A stretch of DNA of 21,930 bases from a virus. This document shows, piece after piece, positions 3,489-21,930 of the stretch (positions are counted from its first letter, which is position 1; each line of letters starts with the position of its first letter). A program made the position numbers and the translations under genes. The notes beneath the pieces are model-generated. The model saw nothing but the letters and a program-made list of their open reading frames with translations, ran no database searches and was not told the DNA's origin. The stretch covers positions 1 to 21,930 of the IMG/VR virus record IMGVR_UViG_3300015371_000205; one strand, 5' to 3'.

Positions 3489-4232
3489 ATGGCCACCATC
3501 CGCCACGCCCATTCGTCCAGCCTCTATTCCAACAGCCCCGATTCCCTGGCGGACCAAGTGGAACGGTGGGTGGAAGCGGAGGACCCTTCCGCCACCATTT
3601 GCACGTTTACGGAAGTGGGCTCCGATGCCCGAACGAAAGTCCTAAAGGATGCGGACCCGGACGCGTGGGCCGCGTGGGTGCCATCCCAAACCGATATCGG
3701 GATTATGTGGCGGAAAGCGGATTACTCCCCGATATGGAAAGAGGGTAAGAAACTCACGGACAAAGTGTGGACCGATGGGCAGGGCCGCAAACATGAAACA
3801 TGGTGTGGAACGGCCCTGTTAAAACACAAGTCCGGGTGCAAGCTCTTTGTGTCGGTTTGCCACCTACCGTCCCACGTGCAAAACGGGAATAAGTTTTACG
3901 ATAACGCCCAAGCTAAAGCGTGGAAGTCCGCCTGTTCCGGGTGGTCCGATTATTGGAATAACAAGCGGAAAAAGGATCACCCCGATATCGCAATGATAAT
4001 TGCGGATTGGAACGTGGACTTCCATTCCGGCCATTGGCGAGACGTGGTGCAAAGCTATTTTCCGTCCATGTTCCTGGGGTGGAATGGGCACATGCCCCCG
4101 AACGGGAAAGGCACCCACGGATCCCGGCTCATTGACGGAACAATGGCCACCAAGAAAACCACCAAGTGTGAGCTGTTAAAGGATGACAATTCGTCCGACC
4201 ACCGCCCCTATGGGGAAGTCATCCCGTGGTGA
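3489..4232 (+). CDS. Endonuclease/exonuclease/phosphatase (EEP, DNase I-like) family protein
   Basis: Metal-dependent phosphodiesterase fold. The 247-residue protein carries a full set of EEP motifs in the right order: E42 in FTEVG, H125 in VCHLPS, D173 and N175 in IADWNVD, D216 in SRLIDG, and D237-H238 in SSDHRP. Catalytic competence is therefore likely; the substrate (DNA, RNA or phospholipid) is unknown. No signal peptide or membrane segment is seen. It interrupts the protease-capsid order. By hand count, 3661-4200 is about 54% G+C against about 68% in sampled protease lines, and Lys and Trp are frequent, so it looks imported. A 54-residue membrane protein follows with no gap. It may be a moron acting against host or rival phage DNA. 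Confidence 0.8.
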   Translation: MATIRHAHSSSLYSNSPDSLADQVERWVEAEDPSATICTFTEVGSDARTKVLKDADPDAWAAWVPSQTDIGIMWRKADYSPIWKEGKKLTDKVWTDGQGRKHETWCGTALLKHKSGCKLFVSVCHLPSHVQNGNKFYDNAQAKAWKSACSGWSDYWNNKRKKDHPDIAMIIADWNVDFHSGHWRDVVQSYFPSMFLGWNGHMPPNGKGTHGSRLIDGTMATKKTTKCELLKDDNSSDHRPYGEVIPW

Positions 4233-4420: not shown

Positions 4421-4562
4421 AACCCGGGCCTAACGTCCGAAACAGAACCGCCACCCCGGCCCCATTACCGGCCACCCCGCCTCATGAGCGGCCACCCCGG
4501 AATGTGTGAGTACCGGCCACCCGGTCAGGACTATTCGACCGAGCCCTAAAGGGGTTACTGGC

Positions 4563-5753
4563 ATGGGCAGCTATCTTGACCGCCTCAATAGGCAGTATGA
4601 CGAAATCCGGGACGGTATTGACGCGGTGATTAACCGCGCGGCCGATGAGGACCGGGACGTTAACGAAACCGAACAGGGACAGGTGGAAAGGGACCGTTCC
4701 CGCCTGACCGAGCTACAGACGGCCATCACGCATTACACCGAATTGGAAACCCAAAACGGGCGTGTGGCGGAGCTTCGGCGGACCGCCCCGGCGGCCAGCA
4801 CCACGCGGACCGCGCGGGATTCCGAGCCCGAATATGACGTGGCCCGGGAATTCCCAACCGCCGGTGACTACGCCATTACGGTCCACCGGGCCATGATGCT
4901 CCGGGACCCGGAAGCCCGGGAAAAGCTTGACCGCGCAACCGCTCACCAACTCCTGGCCGATAACCCGGGAATCGTGCCCCGGCCGGTGCTCGGCCCGGTG
5001 CTCAATAACATTGACAGCGCGCGGCCGTTTATCAATTCGATTTCCCGGCGGCCACTTCCGGCCGGGACTTTCGATAGGCCCACGATTACCCAACACGTGG
5101 CCGTCGATAAGCAAGCGGCGGAAAAGACCCTGACCGCTAGTCAAAAGCTTGTTATCGGAAAGATTCCGGTACAGGCGGACACGTTCGCGGGCCACCTGAA
5201 TATCTCCCGACAGGACGTCAAGTGGACTTCCCCCGGGATTATGCAAATCGTGTTTGAGGATTTCGCGGCGGTTTATGCCAACGCCACGGATAATGAGGCT
5301 TGCGAAGATTTCGCGGCCTCCGTTACCAATGTCCTCCCCATTGACACGTGGGACGCGGCCGGGATTTTCGAGGGGATTTACGGCGGGGCGGAAAACACCC
5401 TGTCGTCAAGTAACGCGCTCCCCAATACCCTTTGGGTTTCCCCGGACGTGTGGGGCCGCCTTGGGGCTTTGCAGGTCCCGATGGGCGGGCCGCTCTTCCC
5501 CGGCATTAGCCCGAGCGGAACCACCGGCGGATCCCCGGCCGGGTTCAATTTCGTGGTTGACCGGAATTTCCCGGCGGCCACCATGATTCAGGGCCCGAGC
5601 GTTTACGCCGAATGGTATGAGGACGTGGACGGGCTTATGCAGGTGGGCGAGCCGGACGTGCTCGGCCAGCTTGTGGGGTATGCCGGTTATGGGGCTTTCG
5701 TGAATGTCCTTCCGGCGGCGTTCACAAAGTTCACGGTTCCGGCTCCGGTGTAA
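4563..5753 (+). CDS. Major capsid protein, HK97 fold, with N-terminal delta domain
   Basis: Shell protein of the icosahedral head, 396 residues. Residues 1 to about 95 are charged and helical with Glu/Arg-rich heptads, as in the HK97 delta domain that serves as internal scaffold and is cut off by the protease. After this come the P-domain and A-domain parts, ending at a hydrophobic C-terminus near AAFTKFTVPAPV. A longer frame opens at GTG 4506, but ATG 4563 is chosen: it follows AAAGGGG by about nine bases, in a context nearly the same as the portal start (AGGGGTTA, then ATG). No separate scaffold gene is seen, which fits the fused delta domain. Confidence 0.88.
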   Translation: MGSYLDRLNRQYDEIRDGIDAVINRAADEDRDVNETEQGQVERDRSRLTELQTAITHYTELETQNGRVAELRRTAPAASTTRTARDSEPEYDVAREFPTAGDYAITVHRAMMLRDPEAREKLDRATAHQLLADNPGIVPRPVLGPVLNNIDSARPFINSISRRPLPAGTFDRPTITQHVAVDKQAAEKTLTASQKLVIGKIPVQADTFAGHLNISRQDVKWTSPGIMQIVFEDFAAVYANATDNEACEDFAASVTNVLPIDTWDAAGIFEGIYGGAENTLSSSNALPNTLWVSPDVWGRLGALQVPMGGPLFPGISPSGTTGGSPAGFNFVVDRNFPAATMIQGPSVYAEWYEDVDGLMQVGEPDVLGQLVGYAGYGAFVNVLPAAFTKFTVPAPV

Positions 5754-20764: not shown

Positions 20765-20937
20765 GCACTACCGGCCCCCTGGCCGAATTCGTGGAAAGGC
20801 TGTTACGGACCACGGATCCGGATATGACCGTGGGTGAATTCGTGGCCCTGCTGGACGGATGGTTAGCGGAAGGGTTGCTAGTCCGGCCCCCGGATGACCC
20901 ACCGGGAACGTACCGGTTCCACGTCCCGGGGCCGTGA
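20761..20937 (+). CDS. Small acidic protein (58 residues)
   Basis: Begins in ATGA overlapping the previous stop and ends one base into the next ATG (TGATG). It is acidic, with helices PLAEFVERLLRTTD and VGEFVALLDGWLAEGLLV and a Pro-rich end. No motif recognised. The tight gene packing with the next wHTH protein hints at a partner role only. Confidence 0.5.
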   Translation: MSTTGPLAEFVERLLRTTDPDMTVGEFVALLDGWLAEGLLVRPPDDPPGTYRFHVPGP

Positions 20938-21272
20938 TGGGCTCCCGGCAAATCCGGCGGGTTAAGCGGTCGCTCATGGGCGAGGAACGGTTACCCATGG
21001 CGTGCCGGTGCGCCATGGTGTGGATGGCATGGCACGCGTTGGACGGAAAAGGGAAACACCCGGATGACCCGCCCGGAGTGTATTGGGGCGGCCACGCTGA
21101 ATTGGCGTTGGAAGTATTCGGGGCCACGCCCAAACCGGCCACCCGTAAACGGGAGATAACACGGGTTATCCGGGAATTGGAAAGGCGGAAACTAATAGAG
21201 GCGTACGCCAACACGCCCGGCGGCCGTGTCGCATATCGACTACTGCCAACGGAGCTGGACGGGGGTGGGTAA
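20937..21272 (+). CDS. Winged-helix protein, candidate replication initiator
   Basis: 111 residues from ATG 20937, in a TGATG overlap; GTG 20934 is possible. It starts basic (RQIRRVKRSLMGEERLPMA), has a Trp/Met-rich helix CAMVWMAWHALDG, a Pro/Gly turn, and ends with a winged-helix-like REITRVIRELERRKLIEAYANTPGGRVAYRLL. Its stop lies inside the first of four 23-24 bp repeats, a common arrangement for an initiator gene beside its own origin. No helicase or primase is seen, so this is the best initiator candidate in the window. The initiator role is inference. Confidence 0.6.
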   Translation: MGSRQIRRVKRSLMGEERLPMACRCAMVWMAWHALDGKGKHPDDPPGVYWGGHAELALEVFGATPKPATRKREITRVIRELERRKLIEAYANTPGGRVAYRLLPTELDGGG

Positions 21273-21351
21273 TACGTCACCCCTAGCGGTGGGTGATGAC
21301 CCACCGGGGGGGTGGGTGATGACCCACCGGGGGGGTGGGTAATACGTCACC
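21264..21351 (+). repeat. Four iteron-like repeats, candidate replication origin
   Basis: Repeats start at 21264, 21288, 21311 and 21334 (spacings 24, 23, 23 bp). The outer two share GGTGGGTAATACGTCACC; the inner two are GGTGGGTGATGACCCACC, a near-perfect palindrome with a 7-bp stem. The order is A-B-B-A, the two A units being 70 bp apart and identical over 23 bp (21261-21283 and 21331-21353). About two helical turns between units fits initiator-binding iterons. They begin inside the stop of a winged-helix gene. Repeat geometry is seen directly; origin function is inferred. Confidence 0.6.
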
Positions 21352-21356
21352 CCCTT

Positions 21357-21458
21357 AGGAACCAAGTAGGAACCAACAGGAACCAATGGGGAACACCAAT
21401 CACCCAAGGTGATTGGCTCACCACGCGCGCGAGGCAACCAAGCGCAACCAATGGACAA
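21357..21458 (+). repeat. Phased AACCAA repeats beside the iterons
   Basis: AGGAACCAA occurs at 21357, 21368 and 21378, then a variant GGGAACACCAA near 21388, GCAACCAA at 21434 and 21444, and CAATGG twice near 21449-21461. The 10-11 bp phase puts copies on one face of the helix, as at protein-wrapped origin or attachment sites. This stretch is lower in G+C and less coding-like than its flanks. It lies immediately after the iteron array and before the HNH gene. The duplex-unwinding or second protein-binding region is a guess. Confidence 0.5.
21396..21416. repeat. Perfect 9-bp palindrome in the origin-like region
   Basis: CCAATCACC (21396-21404) and GGTGATTGG (21408-21416) form a perfect inverted repeat around CAA. 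Placed between the phased AACCAA groups, it could be a protein-binding site, hairpin or primer-related element. No poly-T follows, so termination is unlikely. Confidence 0.5.
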
Positions 21459-21479
21459 TGGATATCGGTGGGGTGGACA

Positions 21480-21930
21480 GTGACACCCGTGGCACCCCGT
21501 AAAAGAAAGTCCGGTAATCGCCAACAGGTGGTTAATGGACAATTCGTCGGGACCCAAGAATGGAAACAATTACGGGACCGATGGCAAAAGCGATTACCCC
21601 AACCCTGCCCACGCTGTCCCCATGACGTGATGCCGTGGGACGAATGGGACCTAGACCACGTGGGCGTACCCGTGGCGTTGGGCGCAACCGATGGGGTCAT
21701 CCGTCCCGCGCACCGGGCGTGCAACCGGCGGGCCGGTGGCCAGCTCGGCAAGGACCTGGCCCGGCTCGGGAGGCAAGCGGCGTTGGGAATCCTGCCGTCT
21801 CAACAGGTGGACCCTGACTTGACACCCACCCCCGGGGTGGGGTTGTCAAGTCCGTCTCACGATGTGGACGCCGGCTCGAGCCAACCGGAGGCGGGCTCCG
21901 TTTTTTGTGAGCGCGACGGATCTCCAAGCG
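21480..21930 (+). CDS. HNH endonuclease, partial at the right edge
   Basis: At least 150 residues from GTG 21480, which follows GGTGGGG; GTG 21489 is possible. The sequence has CPRCPHD (C-x2-C), then EWDLDHVGVP, a typical D-H of HNH nucleases, and VIRPAHRACNRRAGG with the His and Asn of the second half. HNH proteins beside terminase assist DNA packaging cleavage at cos in many phages. A run of Pro/Ser/Gly residues follows and the frame stays open to the last base. The small terminase is expected just beyond the window. Confidence 0.8.
   Translation, partial: MTPVAPRKRKSGNRQQVVNGQFVGTQEWKQLRDRWQKRLPQPCPRCPHDVMPWDEWDLDHVGVPVALGATDGVIRPAHRACNRRAGGQLGKDLARLGRQAALGILPSQQVDPDLTPTPGVGLSSPSHDVDAGSSQPEAGSVFCERDGSPS
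21816..21852 (+). repeat. Long inverted repeat near the window end
   Basis: GACTTGACA (21816-21824) and TGTCAAGTC (21844-21852) are perfectly complementary, with further CCACCCC/GGGGTGG pairing inside. It could be a regulatory hairpin or terminator. It lies within the open HNH frame, so its role is uncertain. Confidence 0.5.
21886..21906 (+). terminator. Hairpin followed by T-run near the window end
   Basis: CGGAG (21886-21890), a five-base loop, CTCCG (21896-21900), then TTTTTT (21901-21906). Typical intrinsic-terminator shape, with a short stem. Because the HNH frame is still open here, it might terminate that gene prematurely, or the real HNH stop may lie beyond. The right edge is too close to tell. 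Confidence 0.4.

Follow-up and report, generated by a model that had tools for sequence, protein, structure and literature searches.

What function is served by a four-unit repeat array that begins at the very end of a small winged-helix gene in an uncultured phage? The question is raised by a metagenomic virus record of IMG/VR, whose entire 21,930 bp were analyzed here and are referred to as the window. The record encodes a portal, a prohead protease, a serine integrase, an HTH repressor-type protein and a PDDEXK exonuclease, with further genes up to the winged-helix gene for an ERF single-strand annealing protein, a Hjc-type resolvase and a zinc-finger protein; it terminates within an HNH-terminase gene. 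A DNA search of the named-phage collection with the early-to-HNH region gave no match. An earlier note on this DNA had proposed an initiator-binding origin, and our analysis supports that proposal: it is highly probable that approximately 21264-21432 is a phage replication origin and that the gene ending in it encodes the initiator; our best reading is an iteron origin whose O-like initiator stands alone. The layout found in relatives supports this reading, and three lines of evidence favour it over the alternatives: the DnaA boxes beside the arrays, the replacement of the gene by a recognized initiator in a sister-branch phage, and the O-like fold and profile matches.

The array (21264-21352) comprises four units in the order A-B-B-A with start-to-start steps of 24, 23 and 23 bp, which bears out the order, the 23-24 bp spacing, the palindromic inner units and the overlap with the stop of the winged-helix gene that the earlier note had described (Table 1). 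The two A units are identical to each other over 23 bp, and the two B units likewise; the left half, GGTGGGTRAT, is common to both types, the right half of A is different, and the A units are imperfect dyads. Unit 1 starts 6 bp ahead of the TAA (21270-21272), and at its other end the gene overlaps the TGA of the preceding gene with its ATG, a GTG at 20934 being a possible alternative start. At a lag of 23, the best 36-bp self-match in the array is 33/36, against a maximum of 23/36 in dinucleotide shuffles (0 of 300 reach the observed value), and the array is the strongest tandem repeat of the record, the runner-up in the whole 21.9 kb scoring 27/36. No further copies of the unit were found in the record, where four pattern matches with two mismatches compare with about 3.9 expected by chance; in viral contigs, the exact pattern of the window unit gave at least 119 single matches and no array among them.

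Table 1. Coordinates of the features of the locus and of the terminase loci in related phages and prophages.
Feature	Position or loci	Strand	Basis or remark
Winged-helix initiator gene (putative), 111 aa	20937..21272	+	ORF; family alignment of 10 phages; AlphaFold
Iteron 1, type A, GGTGGGTAATACGTCACCC	21264..21282	+	Stop codon of winged-helix gene inside
Iteron 2, type B, GGTGGGTGATGACCCACC	21288..21305	+	Perfect 7-4-7 dyad
Iteron 3, type B, identical to iteron 2 (GGTGGGTGATGACCCACC)	21311..21328	+	
Iteron 4, type A, identical to iteron 1 (GGTGGGTAATACGTCACCC)	21334..21352	+	
A/C-rich direct repeats AGGAACCAAG / AGGAACCAAC / AGGAACCAAT / GGGAACACCAA, candidate unwinding element	21357..21399	+	
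9-bp inverted repeat CCAATCACC-CAA-GGTGATTGG	21396..21416	+	Right arm GGTGATTGG retained in G001, G002
CGCGCGCGA block	21424..21432	+	Sequence
HNH domain of fused HNH-terminase gene, GTG start	21480..21930	+	PHROG HNH matches; fused ORF in relatives
HNH-terminase fusion loci	Window 21480-21930 + 1-1401; L130 4694-6859; L150 3989-5908; L298; L292; L299		
HNH-terminase fusion in actinobacterial prophages	L154, L155, L157, L159, L160, L162, L166		
Contig-end loci examined	L169-L241; L123, L125, L126, L132, L133, L139, L146		

Relatives were collected in several ways: the gene at 4506-5753, a capsid gene judging from its position, gave 25 related contigs when used as a query; a terminase profile had 80 hits in viral contigs and another 14 in bacterial genomes (Nocardioides, Kribbella and Nostocoides among these); and HNH profiles brought in additional relatives. 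A winged-helix profile identified the family in 14 phages in total, the window and 13 IMG/VR relatives, mostly directly 5' of the HNH-terminase gene; the winged-helix gene was not detected in G012 and G010, although both retain the HNH-terminase. The interval from winged-helix gene to HNH was read directly in every one of the 14 members and submitted to a periodicity test at lags 20-28 with 300 shuffles. Significant arrays with steps of 22-24 bp, beating all or all but three of the shuffles, precede the HNH-terminase gene in 11 of the 14 intervals, and the test was not significant in the other three (G011, L292 and G014). The earlier expectation that relatives would carry the same repeats beside the same gene holds for the array layout but not for the repeats themselves, whose sequence is mostly phage-specific. 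The units are GGTGGGTGATGACCCACC in the window, GGGGCCAACCATTGGCCCC in G001, GTGGGACATACGGTGTCCCAC in G002 and GTTACCCATAGCGGGTAAC in G007; among further relatives they are CCTGACAACAGTGTCAGG in G008, CCTGACGTATATGTCAGG in L298, GGTTCACGGGATGAACC in L150, GGACACTGGTGTCC in G014 and GGGGACATAGCGTGTCC in L299, and in G006, G004, L296, G011 and L292 they are less palindromic or direct repeats. About 1 kb of other sequence separates the winged-helix gene from the array in G014 and L296. Two local observations were also made: an open frame on the minus strand of L150 (3487-3867) separates the winged-helix gene from the array and overlaps the latter, and a tRNA-like sequence, read by eye and apparently for proline, lies just 5' of the origin-HNH interval in L151 (~3640-3720), a 25.8-kb relative.

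These comparisons show that the position before the HNH-terminase gene is fixed while initiator and repeats diverge among phages, and a phage-specific repeat sequence is the pattern expected of a co-evolving protein-site pair. With iteron units picked by eye, a Mantel test of the whole recognition helix against iteron sequence was not significant (p=0.29), and values of p=0.018 and 0.005 were obtained only for helix sub-segments chosen post hoc. One pair of relatives, G008 and L298, is suggestive, sharing an AAERAVAR helix and a CCTGAC...GTCAGG iteron.

The AlphaFold model of the 111-aa protein is a confident winged helix (pLDDT 85, pTM 0.78). A structure search against the PDB returned generic winged helices only, none below E=0.001, and 4pql (N-domain of a DNA-binding protein) and 5kbj (a Rep-DNA complex), weak fold matches, had TM scores among the higher ones (0.52-0.53); in the viral comparison, HTH proteins of phages were matched, replication protein O of Min27 among them (TM 0.62). 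Most family members have 106-117 aa and stop just past the wing; identity to the window protein is 20-40%. Single-sequence searches of viral contigs and named phages with the window protein gave no match, nor did the proteins of two relatives against named phages. According to the earlier note, the protein would be a small phage initiator of a type with no obvious match among known ones. The window's own protein matched no family in Pfam or PHROG. The relatives weakly match the N-termini of O-type initiators: their PHROG matches are mostly to "replication initiation O-like" or "replication initiation protein" families, with a best value of E=3.1e-4, and PF13730 is weakly matched by the winged-helix proteins of two of them. 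Outside the viral contigs, the sole match of the family profile in 396 Actinomycetota genomes is a weak one (E=2.8e-4) to a 276-aa frame, L316 (G051:C17:20998-21177), possibly a longer version of the initiator with a C-terminal domain.

DnaA boxes were counted as TTATCCACA, TTGTCCACA and TTATGCACA. Perfect boxes number 11 in the 14 intervals (4.0 kb) and 0 in the remaining 59.2 kb, and boxes within one mismatch number 24 inside and 15 outside, while shuffled intervals contain 0.09 perfect boxes on average, with a maximum of 2. Nine of the 14 phages have boxes beside the array; often at least one precedes the array and another follows it close to the start of HNH. No box within one mismatch was found in the intervals of the window, G001, G002, G007 and L298. 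The terminase tree groups the window with G001 and G002 with full support, G007 joins them with moderate support, and L298 lies elsewhere; consequently, the absence of boxes needs two changes on that tree.

The stretch at 21352-21400, just 3' of the array, has 49% GC and ranks at the 99th percentile of the record for duplex instability, but it is not the record's least stable place. In relatives as well, A/C-rich direct repeats, mostly with ACCA, come after the array. A CGCGCGC block similar to CGCGCGCGA is found at the same place in G001, G002, L150, G006, L298 and G012. An Rfam scan gave sub-threshold chance matches only.

The gene's position was informative in G013, a phage of a sister branch, where the slot before the interval to HNH is occupied by a 138-aa ORF matching phrog_3926 "replication initiation protein" (E=2.5e-27); since a known initiator family fills the slot, we argue that this is where the initiator is encoded and that the gene does not belong to the terminase. 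Profiles of DnaB_C, IstB and PolA, the three families searched for, found nothing in nine near-complete records, which may be incomplete, while positive controls worked. That related phages retain the layout with mostly different repeats points to a compact, fast-changing initiator-origin unit, which may rely on host replication machinery. In the model that we propose, the 111-aa protein would sit as dimers on the four iterons, which are spaced by two helical turns, so that the dimers line up along the same face of the helix; the complex would strain and open the adjoining A/C-rich direct repeats, and the host replisome would then load onto the opened origin, a step suggested by the failure to find a DnaB-type helicase, an IstB/DnaC-type loader or a PolA polymerase of the phage's own. 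Where boxes flank the array, as in most relatives, the helicase is probably brought by host DnaA bound to them. In the window's lineage, which has no recognizable DnaA box, the initiator would have to contact the helicase or DnaA itself, unless degenerate boxes serve. A stronger version, in which this lineage has a DnaA-independent minimal origin, without DnaA boxes and without a phage helicase or loader, opened by a 111-aa protein that lacks a helicase-recruiting domain and brings the host replisome alone while relatives keep the DnaA-assisted form, seems to us rather unlikely.

Where the contig of a relative covers the junction, a single continuous ORF (~600-850 aa) encodes both HNH nuclease and large terminase, a fusion for which a literature search found no description. 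Contig ends recur near the terminase: by our own count 39 of the 80 loci, about half, start at one, 89-262 bp 5' of the terminase motif MSxPHP, and the window record breaks at the same place, with apparently ~150 bp missing. These contig ends suggest that the fused gene probably contains the ends (cos) of the virion genome and would be whole only in joined DNA.

A first alternative, to which we give a very small chance, is that the winged-helix protein is a small terminase subunit and the array a packaging site (cosB/pac-type) 5' of the genome end. Small terminases too carry helix-turn-helix domains, the array lies directly 5' of the HNH-terminase gene, ~0.5 kb from the inferred genome end, and no small terminase gene was recognizable between HNH and large terminase in the window, where both flanking genes are present. 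However, DnaA boxes sit beside the arrays, and we know of no packaging role for such boxes; the gene is not kept wherever the large terminase is kept, being undetected in two relatives and replaced in G013 by a recognized replication-initiation protein with HNH-TerL still there; and the profile and fold matches are to replication initiators, not to terminases.

It is very improbable, in our judgment, that the array is instead an operator and the protein a repressor or activator switching the downstream HNH-terminase late operon. Winged-helix regulators do bind palindromic sites such as those found here 5' of the late operon, and the PDB sequence matches of the protein are IclR/MarR regulators, but no sigma-70-type promoter was detected in 20900-21700, and three to four helically phased sites plus DnaA boxes exceed what an operator needs. 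The array could have a dual role, as origin and late-gene regulator. Still less credible is a function of the repeats at the RNA level, as hairpins terminating or attenuating early transcription: being inverted repeats, the B units would form hairpins in a transcript, but no T-run comes after the units, no terminator was called on the + strand, and the units of G006, G004 and L296 are largely direct, non-palindromic repeats. Finally, the repeats could have arisen by chance, or could form a centromere-like or attachment array without connection to the gene; these readings can practically be discounted, since arrays beyond shuffles recur beside the same gene family in 11 of 14 phages, the serine integrase is 6.5 kb away and no ParA family match was obtained among the 20 window proteins scanned, even though parS arrays occur in some temperate mycobacteriophages (PMC7157519).

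A putative initiator-bound origin of this form is relevant because the DNA replication systems of mycobacteriophages have been described as poorly characterized (PMC7157519). The origin-initiator unit of ~0.5 kb is recognizable in 14 uncultured phages of a group without named relatives in the named-phage collection, and these phages offer initiators and iterons in a natural series, some with DnaA boxes and some without. Two questions become testable with it: by what route a helicase reaches an initiator that is little more than a DNA-binding domain, and how the specificity of initiator for origin changes. Should the hosts turn out to be actinobacteria, it may also yield small replicons for actinobacterial genetics.

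Several known systems can be compared with this locus. In phage lambda, an additional region of the O protein contacts the helicase loader P, whereas the proteins described here contain little beyond the DNA-binding domain and no C-terminal P-recruiting region; the iterons of ori-lambda lie mid-gene, whereas those found here lie at or after the stop codon, only iteron 1 overlapping it; and, unlike in lambda, no DnaB or IstB-type loader gene was found here and most relatives have DnaA boxes. In lambda, as proposed here, an early gene encodes a DNA-binding initiator, and four iterons are tied to that gene; the lambda iterons lie beside a less stable, AT-rich tract (PMC7466680), to which the 49% GC stretch after the window's array may correspond. 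Iteron plasmid origins combine DnaA boxes and iterons with a repeated sequence where unwinding occurs, and RK2 oriV, P1 oriR and F resemble our locus and its relatives in their 17-22 bp iterons, winged-helix initiator and DnaA helper, the last a probable one here (PMC4980987); tandem iterons about two turns apart, as in the RK2/P1 type, correspond to the steps of the window and its relatives. They differ in that the initiator here is a single winged helix of ~110 aa with no Rep_3/TrfA-type Pfam match, and in that boxes are restricted to part of the family, the window having none that is recognizable. In RepA_N plasmids such as pSK41, a winged-helix N-domain of ~120 residues binds four boxes tied to the rep gene, and the Rep of pPR9 has a phage-like PF13730 N-domain (PMC5703833), to which the weak PF13730 and PDB fold matches reported above correspond; here, in contrast, there is no C-terminal primase-binding domain, the boxes lie outside the gene and no RepA_N Pfam match was obtained. 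The O-like and replication initiation proteins of PHROG 391, 345, 678 and 270 are weakly matched in their N-terminal parts, and they span 297-383 positions, the proteins described here being about one third as long. The kind of system, an iteron origin with a winged-helix initiator, is already known; the novelty lies in how far the initiator is reduced and in how the DnaA boxes vary.
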